DNA from: Cyanobacteria bacterium SIG26
GTDB taxonomy: Bacteria > Cyanobacteriota > Vampirovibrionia > Gastranaerophilales > Gastranaerophilaceae
DNA length: 64,000 nucleotides
Assembly: GCA_015152555.1 (NCBI GenBank)
Contig: SUTS01000003.1
Location: 62,001-126,000 of the forward strand
Direction of reading: 5' to 3'
Shown: in pieces, positions 25,348 to 64,000 of the stretch
Layout: every line of letters starts with the position of its first letter
How positions within the stretch are numbered: position 1 is the stretch's first letter
Program-made: the position numbers and the translations under genes
The notes under the pieces: generated by a model
Databases searched by the model: none
Told to the model about the DNA's origin: nothing
The model's input: the letters and a program-made list of their open reading frames with translations, nothing else

Positions 25348-25379
25348 AGAAAGCACTCAAACTATTGAGTGCTTTTTTT
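25348..25379 (+). terminator. Terminator of rpsL-rpsG, overlapping the convergent coding end
   Basis: The stem AAAGCACTCAA / TTGAGTGCTTT, loop ACTA, is followed by a T-run. The stop codon of the convergent 25362-26975 gene lies in this hairpin's loop region, so its last codons form one arm. Confidence 0.9.
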
Positions 25380-26975
25380 GTTACGTATATTATCTAAATC
25401 TTTAGTTGCGACCGTTGTAGTTTTAACATTATATTTGGATTGCAGAGTTGCATATACAGACGGATTTATGAGCATGGGTGGACATTTAACCATATACAAA
25501 CTTTTCGCATTATGTTTTTTGAGCATAATTAAACCGGAAACACTCATAACATCACAAGTTGTAAAAAAGAAAGTTATACGTTCATCTTCAATAGAAATTT
25601 TATTAAATATTTCAACCAGAATCTTTGATACAACAGGGGTATAATTTCCAACAGGAATAGTTAAAACATTATCTTTATAACTCGAATATGAAAAACTTAT
25701 CACAAACTCGTCATCATTCAATTCTTTAAAAAAGTCATTAAAATATTCTTTTTGAATTTCCAAATGAGCATCAATACCAACGAAATACAAATGTTTTATT
25801 TGTTGGTTATTAAACTTTGTACAAATAACATCTAAATCTCGTTCTAAATCAATAAAATTATAACCGACAACACTGTCCGGCTTTATTTTACCCTTCATAA
25901 AACCTTTTGCATTTTTTGAAGCCTCAATTAAGGGCCCAAAATTATTATTCTCTATTTTAATAACACCTTGTGGTACTATATAATCCGTAGTAAATAATCT
26001 TCCTCGATAATAATATTCCGTATTATTAACGGAATTTTTTGTAAGCAAAATAGCACCCGGAAAAATTGCAAAATCAATCAAACAATTTTCTGTTTTATCA
26101 CCAAAATGACCTTTCAAATTAGCAAATTCTTTAAATTTATTAAGGGAATGAGCGATTAATAGATTAGAGTGGGTATACACATCAATATCAATATCTTTAG
26201 TAGCCTCTAGAAGTTTTAACAAATCAAAAAAATTATTTCCTGAGACCAAAATAGCTTTACCTTTTGCTGTTGAGTGAGACACATTAGTTTCAGAAAGCCC
26301 ATCAAATTTATCCAATAATAATTCACTAATTTTTAGCTGTAATTCACCATCTAAAACAGACAATTCTGAAATAAGCTGTATTAATTTTTGAGAATTTATT
26401 TTATTATGATTAAACAGATCCAAAATATTTATTATGAAATCAATACTAGAACTTTCATTTTCACCAAAATCCAAAAGATTTGAAATATTAAAACAAACGC
26501 TTTTTAAAATCATTTCTAAAATTATAATTAGATTTTTCTGCTCATTATCATATTTTTTATATCTGTCTAAGATAATTTTCTCACCAAGGGCAATAGCTTG
26601 TGGCAAACTTGTATTTTCAAAAAATTTTATACCGTTTTTTAAACGCTTAGGTAATATATTACTTGTTTTACATAAGTTTAAATAAGTCTCCTTAGTGTTT
26701 TTCAATAAAAAATACTCATTTTTAATAATAGAAAACAGTTGGGTATCACTAAACTCATTTACAGAAACTAAACTAGCCAAAGAAATTGCGAGTCGATTAG
26801 AGACACTTTCATTTCTGGCGCCCAGTTGCTCTAGTAATAATATGTAGTGAGAAATTTGTTGCAACATTAAAAAAGCGACTTCTTGAAGTGCGGCAATTGA
26901 TGGCGATACAGAACAAGTCCCTCTGGATGTACATTCATTTACATCTTCAATATGTTTATTATAATTGTTTACCAT
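25362..26975 (-). CDS. Hybrid-cluster protein (Hcp) homologue that has lost its metal ligands
   Basis: This 537-residue protein follows Hcp/prismane end to end: N-terminal CTSRGTCSVSPSIAALQE, ILVSGNNFFDLLKLLEAT, DVYTHSNLLIAHSLNKF, FAIFPGAILLTKNS, YYRGRLFTTDYIVPQGV, HLYFVGIDAHLE, and the C-terminal YNVKTTTVATKDLDNI. Canonical Hcp (hydroxylamine/NO reductase) ligands are changed: the GH histidine (now SGNN), HGEML glutamate (HSNLL), TxNC cysteine (KNS), GGCD (VGID), LACGKY (FSYSSY) and WxEQKA (DVMSVSG). Only two N-terminal cysteines, C15 and C21, remain. A hybrid cluster therefore cannot be built in the usual way. It is preceded 2 bp upstream by a glutaredoxin gene, so the two form an operon. 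A structural or regulatory role is inference. Confidence 0.85.
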   Translation of the reverse strand: MVNNYNKHIEDVNECTSRGTCSVSPSIAALQEVAFLMLQQISHYILLLEQLGARNESVSNRLAISLASLVSVNEFSDTQLFSIIKNEYFLLKNTKETYLNLCKTSNILPKRLKNGIKFFENTSLPQAIALGEKIILDRYKKYDNEQKNLIIILEMILKSVCFNISNLLDFGENESSSIDFIINILDLFNHNKINSQKLIQLISELSVLDGELQLKISELLLDKFDGLSETNVSHSTAKGKAILVSGNNFFDLLKLLEATKDIDIDVYTHSNLLIAHSLNKFKEFANLKGHFGDKTENCLIDFAIFPGAILLTKNSVNNTEYYYRGRLFTTDYIVPQGVIKIENNNFGPLIEASKNAKGFMKGKIKPDSVVGYNFIDLERDLDVICTKFNNQQIKHLYFVGIDAHLEIQKEYFNDFFKELNDDEFVISFSYSSYKDNVLTIPVGNYTPVVSKILVEIFNKISIEDERITFFFTTCDVMSVSGLIMLKKHNAKSLYMVKCPPMLINPSVYATLQSKYNVKTTTVATKDLDNIRNKKSTQ

Positions 26976-26977
26976 AG

Positions 26978-27214
26978 TTATATACCTTTTAAATTTTTCA
27001 CATAATTTATTATATCTTGTGACTCATAAATCCTATCACCAGTCTCCTCGTTAAATAAAAATGGAACTTGGTCTTTACCACCTAAAGTCATTAACCTTAA
27101 GACATTATCACGATTTGATGTATCAAATTTATGATATTTAATATTGTTATCTTTCAAAAAACTCATTACCTTTTGGCAATATGGACACGACTCTAATATA
27201 AATAAATCAAACAT
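26978..27214 (-). CDS. Glutaredoxin-like protein
   Basis: This 78-residue thioredoxin-fold protein has a redox CPYC at residues 10-13, the cis-proline block QVPFLF and the C-terminal helix starting YESQDIINYV, typical of glutaredoxin/NrdH. It reduces disulfides or glutathionylated targets using glutathione or thioredoxin reductase. GGAGGG lies 7 nt before the ATG. It is the first gene of a two-gene operon with the Hcp-like protein. Confidence 0.92.
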   Translation of the reverse strand: MFDLFILESCPYCQKVMSFLKDNNIKYHKFDTSNRDNVLRLMTLGGKDQVPFLFNEETGDRIYESQDIINYVKNLKGI

Positions 27215-32930: not shown

Positions 32931-33311
32931 ATGATATTACTATTTGGAAACAAAGCAAAAACAGGCAAAAATACTAATGCTCAAAGAAACAATAAGGTAA
33001 ACAAAAGCCATCCGGTTGAAAATGCAGGAATATTGGCAATGAGTATTAGCCAAGCTAAAAGCTTGTTAACAATGGGCGAGTTCGATACTTTTATATCTCA
33101 ACACCCTGTAGCAATAGATTATTCAATGTACTCAAGCTTTGATTTTTCGTCAGAAGACGGAGATGGTGGATTTTTAGGCGGTTTTTCCGCAGCCGTCGCA
33201 ATGTTGGGCGGAGATTGCGGATTTGGTTTTGGTGGCGGCGGATTTGACTGCGGAGGCGGAGCGTCGTTCTGCGGTGGCGGTTCTTGCTCATCATTTTCCT
33301 CTGTCGGATAG
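32931..33311 (+). CDS. Small protein with Gly/Cys-rich C-terminal tail
   Basis: This 126-residue protein has a basic N-terminal half (MILLFGNKAKTGKNTNAQRN), a short helical middle, then from about residue 78 a Gly/Ser/Phe-rich tail with four spaced cysteines (C96, C107, C114, C119) in GGDC, FDCGGG, SFCGGG and GSCSS contexts. TAGGAG lies before the ATG. The tail resembles the core of some ribosomally made modified peptides, such as microcin B17-type. No modifying enzyme or transporter is adjacent. It could equally be a low-complexity surface tail. A strong terminator follows. Confidence 0.75.
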   Translation: MILLFGNKAKTGKNTNAQRNNKVNKSHPVENAGILAMSISQAKSLLTMGEFDTFISQHPVAIDYSMYSSFDFSSEDGDGGFLGGFSAAVAMLGGDCGFGFGGGGFDCGGGASFCGGGSCSSFSSVG

Positions 33312-61551: not shown

Positions 61552-64000
61552 CTAACCGGCCTCCTTATTAACCTGCGGAGCCTTCATCTTCCCAAAGAAA
61601 AACTGAGAAATTAAAGTCACACCTGCAACTCCTGCACCTAACTTACCAAACTTTGATAACCAAGTTTTACTATTAAATTTATTATTAAATAATTTAAAAA
61701 TAAATTCATCCGGCGCACTTCCCAATTTATTAAATCTTTCAAAAGAAGTCGCCCAATATTCTTTACCATCTAAAAGTACATGCGGAAATGCAAAATACTT
61801 TTCGCCACCAAGTTTTTCTAAAACAGTACGCCTAAAAGCTTTATAATCATCGAAGAATGCTTCATTTTTAAATTTATTTTCTATATCAGGATGAATATCA
61901 CCACCGAACATCATATTCATAACTTTTGAAAAATAATTTTTATCATGAGGAACTTCAACTTTTTCACCATTAGGAACATTATTCAAATATCTATTAACAA
62001 CCTTACCCTCTTTTACTTCAATTTGTGAAGTATCAGTCACCTCAGGATTTAAATTCCGACGTTGAGCAAATTTAACAGCAAAATCAGAAGTATGCCCTTC
62101 TAATAATGTAGATTTTGCTAATTCCACCAATTCCTCTTTGACTTCTCTTAGCATCTTATCATCAAGAACAGCTCCTAAACCTTCTAAGTGAGACACCTTA
62201 TAATACAAATTATTTAACTCTAAAAATCTATAGAAAGAACTTCTTACACCAGTAATTCTATCCGCTACAAAGTCCAAATAAGCTTGCTTTAAAGACGCAC
62301 GATTACTATTATCATAACCCCATAAAGTTTCTATCGTTTTACCCATATTATGTGGCATTAAATCATTTTTAACATTATCAAAAGTCGTTGATACTAGAGA
62401 TTTATATAAATTATTATCATTATCAACAGACATGCCGGAAGTTTTTGAATACATTTTAACAAAAATAGTTCTCATATCATTCAAAAAAGAATCAAAAAGC
62501 TGTTTATCTGATGTAATAGTCTCAATTTTATTTCTTAATACGGCACCGGCAAATTCTCTATCTAACTTTCCTTTAGAAATTTCATCAGGAGTAAATTTTA
62601 GAGCTTTCATTATATCATCAGAAGTGTTATTCCAAACATCAGCAAGTAACGTATGTTCAGCTTGTCCAACTTGTTCATGAGCATACTTAGCTAACACATT
62701 TGTATTTGCAGCAAACTTAACGATAATATCATTGATAGAAGTAAGTTTGTTAATTAAACCTTCAGATAAAATCTTTGCAGGTCTTGCCTCAAAAACTTGT
62801 TCTAAAGGAGTCTTTTGAGAGGTTTGCGCTGAATGATTTATGTTCATCAATATAAACTCTAATCTTTTTGCAAGCTTCGTATCTGGATTATCCCCCAAAT
62901 AGTTTTTAATATTTTGTTCAAGTAAATTATTGATAACTTTTGTATGGTTAGAAAACTCAGGAGTTTGAGCATCCATTATCCCTGCGTTTCTAAAATTTTC
63001 GGCAATAACATCTCGATTTGGTATAATCTTATCAAGCTCATCATCAGGTAATTTTACCGCTTCAAAGTGCGATTTTAACACATTCCGAAGCTCATCAATA
63101 GTATCGCCATTTATACTATATGCACTCTTATAATCTAAATCTTTAGCCAAATCAAACTTCACAGCCTCAGCTAATGATGGATTTAAACCTTTTGTCAAAA
63201 CAGATTCAACATCTTTTACAACAGTTTCTGATAATGGTTGACCCTTATGAGTATCTAAAACGGATTTTAAACCTTCAATTCGCTCGCTATAATCATATTT
63301 TGCAGCTTCTTGATTGAAATTAGCAAGCAGATTTTTAGTTTGAGCTTCTTTACGATTATACAAATATTTTTCAACAGGTTTTTCTAAACCATTACAGATT
63401 AATGCACTCATTATAGGAGCCGCAAAACCTGAGGTTAACATCCACATAGTGTTATTTTGTAATGCAATCTTGCGCATTTTTTCTTGAATAAATTCGCGTC
63501 TATTAGGAATATCTTTAGGAACATTTAATTTATCACCAATTTTATTTATCTCTTTATCAGAATACAAATCCCACGGAATAAATTGATGATCCTGATAAAA
63601 CATCTTTTTACGCCCAAAACTATCTTCATATTGTTGTCTTACATTTACCCCATGGATTAAGTATGCCGGCAATTGTAAAAATAATTTTGGCCAAATATCC
63701 ATTGCTGCAAAAAATGAAGTTAAACCAATAAATTCAAATAGCTTGGCCTGTGAAGTTTGTTTTTTAGTAAACAGATAAGTTGCAATAGCTAAACCGCCTA
63801 ACTTCATACCAACATCATTTAAACGCCCCAATTCATGATCATTTGCTTTACCTTTAACAGCCTTTCCAAAAGCTTTTACGTCATATTTAAAATCTTTCGC
63901 CAACTCTGACGGGCCATCAAACAACCCCTTTTTCAAAAGTTTGCCATTACTTGGCAACGGTTTAATAAACGTTCTGTTTGACAATTCTTTATTAATATCA
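61552..64000 (-). CDS. Large membrane-associated hypothetical protein, 5' end beyond window
   Basis: At least 815 residues. The frame is still open at the window edge (codons before the TTG at 63984 read D-I-N-K-E), so the true start lies outside. Hydrophobic segments near residues 55-70, 85-115 and 180-205 (ATYLFTKK, FIGLTSFFAAMDIWP, WMLTSGFAAPIMSALICN), and one at the C-terminus (GVAGVTLISQFFFGK), flank a long helical, highly charged central body. No domain is recognised. It ends next to the GH13 start and probably forms an operon with it. Confidence 0.75.
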   Translation of the reverse strand, partial: DINKELSNRTFIKPLPSNGKLLKKGLFDGPSELAKDFKYDVKAFGKAVKGKANDHELGRLNDVGMKLGGLAIATYLFTKKQTSQAKLFEFIGLTSFFAAMDIWPKLFLQLPAYLIHGVNVRQQYEDSFGRKKMFYQDHQFIPWDLYSDKEINKIGDKLNVPKDIPNRREFIQEKMRKIALQNNTMWMLTSGFAAPIMSALICNGLEKPVEKYLYNRKEAQTKNLLANFNQEAAKYDYSERIEGLKSVLDTHKGQPLSETVVKDVESVLTKGLNPSLAEAVKFDLAKDLDYKSAYSINGDTIDELRNVLKSHFEAVKLPDDELDKIIPNRDVIAENFRNAGIMDAQTPEFSNHTKVINNLLEQNIKNYLGDNPDTKLAKRLEFILMNINHSAQTSQKTPLEQVFEARPAKILSEGLINKLTSINDIIVKFAANTNVLAKYAHEQVGQAEHTLLADVWNNTSDDIMKALKFTPDEISKGKLDREFAGAVLRNKIETITSDKQLFDSFLNDMRTIFVKMYSKTSGMSVDNDNNLYKSLVSTTFDNVKNDLMPHNMGKTIETLWGYDNSNRASLKQAYLDFVADRITGVRSSFYRFLELNNLYYKVSHLEGLGAVLDDKMLREVKEELVELAKSTLLEGHTSDFAVKFAQRRNLNPEVTDTSQIEVKEGKVVNRYLNNVPNGEKVEVPHDKNYFSKVMNMMFGGDIHPDIENKFKNEAFFDDYKAFRRTVLEKLGGEKYFAFPHVLLDGKEYWATSFERFNKLGSAPDEFIFKLFNNKFNSKTWLSKFGKLGAGVAGVTLISQFFFGKMKAPQVNKEAG

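Follow-up and report, generated by a model that had tools for sequence, protein, structure and literature searches.

A 64,000-nucleotide stretch of the genome of Cyanobacteria bacterium SIG26 (Gastranaerophilales, Gastranaerophilaceae; positions 62,001 to 126,000 of contig SUTS01000003.1; hereafter the window, whose own numbering is used throughout) carries a homologue of the hybrid cluster protein (Hcp) that retains none of the hybrid-cluster residues. The gene, which we call hcpX (25362-26975, minus strand, 537 amino acids), lies directly downstream of a glutaredoxin gene, and our analysis confirms it as a real, old and conserved pseudo-Hcp retained in most genomes of its bacterial family. 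What defines Hcp is an unusual Fe-S-O cluster, which in this large conserved lineage cannot form as known. The fixed cysteines of the protein and its usual glutaredoxin neighbor suggest that it has been rebuilt for a new redox job. We favor, with confidence slightly short of even, a pseudo-Hcp that discarded the hybrid cluster, carries a re-ligated four-cysteine Fe-S site and acts as a redox relay or sensor served by the glutaredoxin. Searches of the open-licence literature turned up no paper that we recognized as dealing with a ligand-less Hcp, and none in which hybrid cluster protein, hydroxylamine reductase or prismane occurred jointly with Gastranaerophilales or Melainabacteria.

Loss of the hybrid-cluster ligands

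The hcpX product matches Pfam Prismane above the cut-off (1.8e-22, 80 bits). A phmmer search against Hcps in the PDB gave a best match of 9e-28, with several matches spanning nearly the whole chain; judged by sequence, the Hcp homology is beyond chance. Scores are under half of the Hcp equivalog cut-offs (176.2 vs. 367 bits for NF003658, 171.5 vs. 360.8 bits for TIGR01703). An AlphaFold (AF2) model made from 70 sequences (the window protein and relatives) has a predicted local distance difference test score (pLDDT) of 88.9 and a predicted template modeling score (pTM) of 0.88. When compared with Hcp crystal structures, as the first-pass annotation had proposed, this model shows an Hcp fold from end to end, with class I and II Hcps as the closest solved structures (Foldseek E 8.6e-26; VIA Z ~32 over 498-511 residues). 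Carbon monoxide dehydrogenase (CODH) structures reach a VIA Z of only ~17 against ~32 for Hcp, and no CODH family that would mark hcpX as a Ni,Fe-CODH (CooS) is found among the NCBIfam matches at E ≤ 1.

To compare ligand residues, hcpX was aligned with 13 canonical Hcps of its own bacterial class, each of which keeps 12/12 metal-ligand residues. hcpX keeps 0/8 hybrid-cluster residues (His, two Glu, four Cys and the Lys of the EQK motif): N247 (codon 26235-26237, minus strand) stands at the former histidine position, N271 and D475 at the glutamates, S315, D402 and Y430 at cysteines and M477 at the lysine, and the GQCND segment of canonical Hcps is unaligned or missing. Of all 12 ligand residues two are retained, both in the proximal [4Fe-4S] motif. 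The first-pass annotation had described full-length Hcp fold blocks with every hybrid-cluster ligand replaced, and this is borne out. Its claim that the EQK pair is replaced also holds, but the glutamate ligand has given way to an aspartate (D475; codon 25551-25553, minus strand) that is itself conserved, in 62/66 main-clade sequences. All eight hybrid-cluster residues are gone in 78 of 99 pseudo-Hcps, and the remaining sequences keep at most three. Misalignment of the ligands was ruled out: alignments with differing sets of rows agree that the window protein has no hybrid ligand, and cysteines were also listed sequence by sequence.

hcpX resembles class I Hcps (D. vulgaris 1e1d/1e2u, D. desulfuricans 1gn9, M. 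thermolithotrophicus 8cnr) in its whole fold, its length, and C15 and C21 of the proximal motif. It differs from them in lacking the hybrid-cluster ligands and two of the proximal cysteines, and in having two new fixed cysteines and a glutaredoxin neighbor. According to PMC10502027, CooS-V/CODH-V of Carboxydothermus hydrogenoformans has no C-cluster and no CODH activity; like hcpX, it belongs to the Hcp/CODH superfamily but lacks the catalytic cluster that would be expected there. Unlike it, hcpX retains zero ligands, and the CODH fold is further away. Similarity-based annotation is likely to label proteins like hcpX 'hydroxylamine reductase' or 'prismane family', and the present case cautions against inferring nitric oxide detoxification from an Hcp annotation in these gut bacteria.

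Across the 66 main-clade sequences, the former ligand columns are mostly of middling conservation. Columns within four residues of them average 2.56 bits vs. 2.04 bits elsewhere, a value matched by 13/507 circular shifts; these neighbors are conserved above the rest, and the former active-site region still has a job. One rival reading is a new metal or substrate site in the old hybrid-cluster pocket, built from the invariant or near-invariant H269, H276, H290, D475, C298 and C474/C498. Domain 2 around the pocket is the best conserved part of the protein, H269, H276, H290 and R324 are among its most conserved columns, and at the position of H290 13/13 canonical Hcps have an Asn. H269, however, is equally invariant among the 13 canonical Hcps without being a ligand there, and H276 is missing in 7/9 sequences of one clade (L120-L128), so we consider such a site improbable.

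Four conserved cysteines

Two cysteines of the proximal motif survive (2/4): C15 (codon 26931-26933, minus strand) is a relic of its third cysteine and C21 (26913-26915, minus strand) of its fourth. Two further cysteines are new, C474 (25554-25556, minus strand) replacing the Tyr of the YEQK loop and C498 (25482-25484, minus strand) the Thr of the GPTLPAF loop; by alignment count, their equivalents in D. vulgaris Hcp are Tyr493 and Thr517. All four are invariant in the 27/27 full-length orthologues of the same genus and rank among the most conserved columns of the main clade. The first-pass annotation had missed these four cysteines, the surviving pair C15/C21 and the new, fixed pair C474/C498. 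hcpX is therefore not stripped of residues capable of metal or redox chemistry.

Counted as the N-terminal segment plus the two C-terminal loops, the cysteines of 99 pseudo-Hcps fall into the patterns 2+2 (72 sequences), 1+3 (10), 2+0 (nine) and other (eight, of which five are fragments or have extra N-terminal cysteines, two, L049 and L154, belong to another family, and the last is L035). Canonical Hcps show 4+0 in 12/18 cases; the other 6/18 have more N-terminal cysteines, and none has any in the loops. The sum thus holds at four in most pseudo-Hcps while the positions move. Of the 99, 86 have both C474 and C498, 11 have neither and only two have a single one (L115, truncated by its contig, and L035). 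Their state changes about five times on the tree. The first-pass proposal of redox sensing or a scaffold was a guess; the four-cysteine pattern speaks more for a role in redox or Fe-S chemistry than for a scaffold that is inert.

Where these residues would lie in space may be gauged from a class III Hcp described in PMC10502027: when one of its N-terminal cluster cysteines is mutated, the N-terminal region becomes disordered and the regions of Glu434 (EQK) and Trp461 move by 5.3-5.8 Å. These shifts indicate that the EQK and Trp461 loops pack on the N-terminal [4Fe-4S] site. Our residue count would assign C498 to the Trp461 loop, and the old proximal site and the loops bearing C474 and C498 should face each other.

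Our proposal is that a class-I-like Hcp lost its catalytic hybrid cluster early in the family and retained the fold. The neighboring proximal site would have been rebuilt from C15 and C21 of the old motif and the new C474 and C498. With these four cysteines as ligands, a single [4Fe-4S] or similar Fe-S cluster, now re-ligated, would sit between the N-terminal segment on one side and the two C-terminal loops on the other. The pseudo-Hcp would then serve in redox relay or sensing through Fe-S/thiol chemistry; the co-encoded glutaredoxin may reduce it, or load or repair its cluster. The lineage offers a natural experiment in the loss of a catalytic metal site from an enzyme fold that keeps, and perhaps re-ligates, an adjoining site of four cysteines.

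The re-ligated Fe-S site is in our judgment the most likely explanation, followed by a cofactor-free thiol switch, in which C474-C498 and C15-C21 disulfides are reduced by the neighboring glutaredoxin and oxidation reshapes the Hcp fold. In the DSSP assignment of the AF2 model, C474 and C498 each come directly after one of two consecutive strands in a β-α-β unit; they vary as a pair, the two cysteine pairs each occur without the other, and the glutaredoxin neighbor is also as such a switch would have it. The clade L120-L128, with one N-terminal and three C-terminal-loop cysteines, is easier to reconcile with a four-ligand site than with a pair of fixed disulfides. Gastranaerophilales-type bacteria are regarded as strict anaerobes of the gut, and in strict anaerobes regulatory disulfides are less expected. 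We regard the switch as less likely than not.

Retention and selection in the family

A search of 286 genomes of the order, 264 of them in the family of the window, found an hcpX match at E ≤ 1e-100 in 217 family genomes, only weaker matches in 38 (short forms, fragments or canonical Hcp) and none in nine (hand count). Most family members score 600-800 bits, whereas matches in the class outside the order reach at most 321 bits and one degraded Hcp, from a different family of the order, 454 bits. Within the genus, 32/35 other genomes have a relative, two of them as fragments only. A single-protein search of public contigs gave no match; an alignment-based search gave 78 loci. Records of the relatives are labeled Gastranaerophilales, Melainabacteria, Cyanobacteria or uncultured bacterium, and a scan of viral contigs found no relative that would point to a viral origin. 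Two contigs with this Gastranaerophilales locus come from metagenome-assembled genomes titled 'Muribaculaceae' (L059) and 'Brachyspira' (L092), which are probably mislabeled bins.

Decay of the gene under relaxed selection is very improbable. hcpX has been cleanly lost several times, but across the family it persists as full-length open frames at 35-57% identity, and the ratio of nonsynonymous to synonymous substitution rates (dN/dS) is 0.04-0.25 in the closest 40 of 59 pairs. The window gene itself is not among these pairs because its nearest relative is only 57% identical. Together with the presence in 217/264 genomes, these values rule out a dying gene for the family; the dN/dS calculation had been suggested by the first-pass annotation and gives no sign of relaxed selection in the family. 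That annotation's view of a gene maintained for another role is well supported by family-wide retention, the full-length fold, low dN/dS and the conserved surroundings of the former active site.

Maintenance could also reflect an inert scaffold or regulatory pseudoenzyme without cofactor or redox chemistry, such as a binding partner of canonical Hcp. All catalytic ligands are gone and the N terminus of the AF2 model is unordered. A canonical Hcp, another of the first-pass suggestions, was indeed found in the same genome, on another contig (741.8 bits for NF003658, 694.9 bits for TIGR01703). Such a role sits poorly with four cysteines that are among the most conserved residues, and many genomes have hcpX as their only match and are therefore without a canonical Hcp. 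An inert role seems to us quite unlikely, a shade more so than the pocket site.

The same-genus alignment holds 27 of 33 rows, six being left out as fragments or split genes. The A2 alignment holds 70 of 79 rows, without L064 and L115 (truncated or split) and L087, L113, L117, L121, L122, L124 and L126 (close relatives of retained rows). Five fragments and three duplicates were left out of the wider alignment, and the tree holds 63 of 117 rows, with its root not placed.

Partly degraded Hcps also occur. L035 (G049) keeps 3/8 hybrid residues and all four proximal cysteines, L129/L130 two hybrid residues and C15/C21, and L049/L154 two hybrid residues. These paralogues of Hcp come from two further families of the order. 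Some share a genome with a canonical Hcp, and they look like separate intermediates of ligand loss. Because they branch apart from the family's pseudo-Hcps on the tree, Hcp may have degenerated more than once in the order. A separate clade (L145-L157 without L151 and L154) consists of short pseudo-Hcps of 474-511 amino acids with no adjacent glutaredoxin.

The glutaredoxin neighbor and the locus

The glutaredoxin gene (26978-27214, minus strand, 78 amino acids, active site CPYC) and hcpX lie head to tail, two bases apart. Its product exceeds the Pfam cut-offs for GST_N_3 (38.6 bits) and Glutaredoxin (31.5 bits), and its best NCBIfam matches are glutaredoxin 2 and GrxB (TIGR02182, 37.2 of 186.65 bits; NF007702, 43.5 of 133 bits), below the equivalog level. 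It resembles the N-terminal domain of GrxB-type glutaredoxins in its CPY[CS] active site and its VPF and YES motifs, but consists of one domain only, lacking the C-terminal one of GrxB. In 76/78 named loci, the gene directly upstream of hcpX encodes a glutaredoxin. The first active-site cysteine is kept in 67/68 main-clade glutaredoxins, the remaining row (L064) being a mis-picked gene; the second is Ser in three of the 68, and L141/L142 have a glutaredoxin with CPYS. In the clade L120-L128, a different, Grx3-like glutaredoxin occupies the same place (TIGR02181, 90.1 bits for L120). The genome of the window has strong matches to GCS2 and GSH-synthetase-ATP.

Several observations weigh against the re-ligated, glutaredoxin-served site. 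On well-supported branches of the tree, paired gain or loss of C474 and C498 amounts to only three independent pairs, not enough to be significant (p 0.25 by sign test), the 1+3 pattern may represent only one or two events, and the nine 2+0 sequences rule out a strict four-cysteine rule. Residues 1-21 of the AF2 model, which include C15 and C21, are unordered (pLDDT < 50). Nine family genomes with no hcpX match retain the glutaredoxin; in six (L165, L166, L171, L172, L174 and L177), hcpX is cleanly missing between the glutaredoxin and rpsG, with no remnant by tblastn, and these absences look like repeated precise losses. The short clade has 10 rows on the tree, nine with all four cysteines, and no adjoining glutaredoxin in the stretches examined; in three of its genomes (G121, G123 and G145) a GrxB-type glutaredoxin is absent or weakly matched. 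The link is therefore one-way, hcpX mostly occurring with the glutaredoxin and not the reverse, and an obligate partnership is ruled out by the nine genomes: the pairing noted in the first-pass annotation holds as gene order, not as a requirement. The FNR/HcpR-like site TTGAN6TCAA is found in 0/76 upstream regions, which speaks against control by a known Hcp regulator.

A more far-reaching version of our proposal, held more tentatively still, is that the catalytic cluster was traded for a re-ligated electron-transfer site whose ligands moved stepwise from 4+0 to 2+2 to 1+3. The outcome would be an Fe-S protein of a new kind, with a single cluster, which took on glutaredoxins of more than one type as partners and became a near-core gene of the family.

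hcpX is convergent at its 3′ end with what we take to be an rpsG-like gene, and upstream of the pair lies a divergent, presumably UDP-N-acetylglucosamine 2-epimerase-like gene (both named by eye). Within the first five clusters of a neighbor clustering of 76 loci, the divergent wecB-like gene is found in at least 65/76 and rpsG in at least 60/76. By eye, a hairpin with a T-run (25350-25380) lies between the convergent rpsG and hcpX and overlaps the stop codon of hcpX; it has the look of a terminator that both genes share and that works in both directions. Elsewhere in the window, a small open reading frame (32931-33311, plus strand) has a tail rich in Gly, Phe, Cys and Ser.
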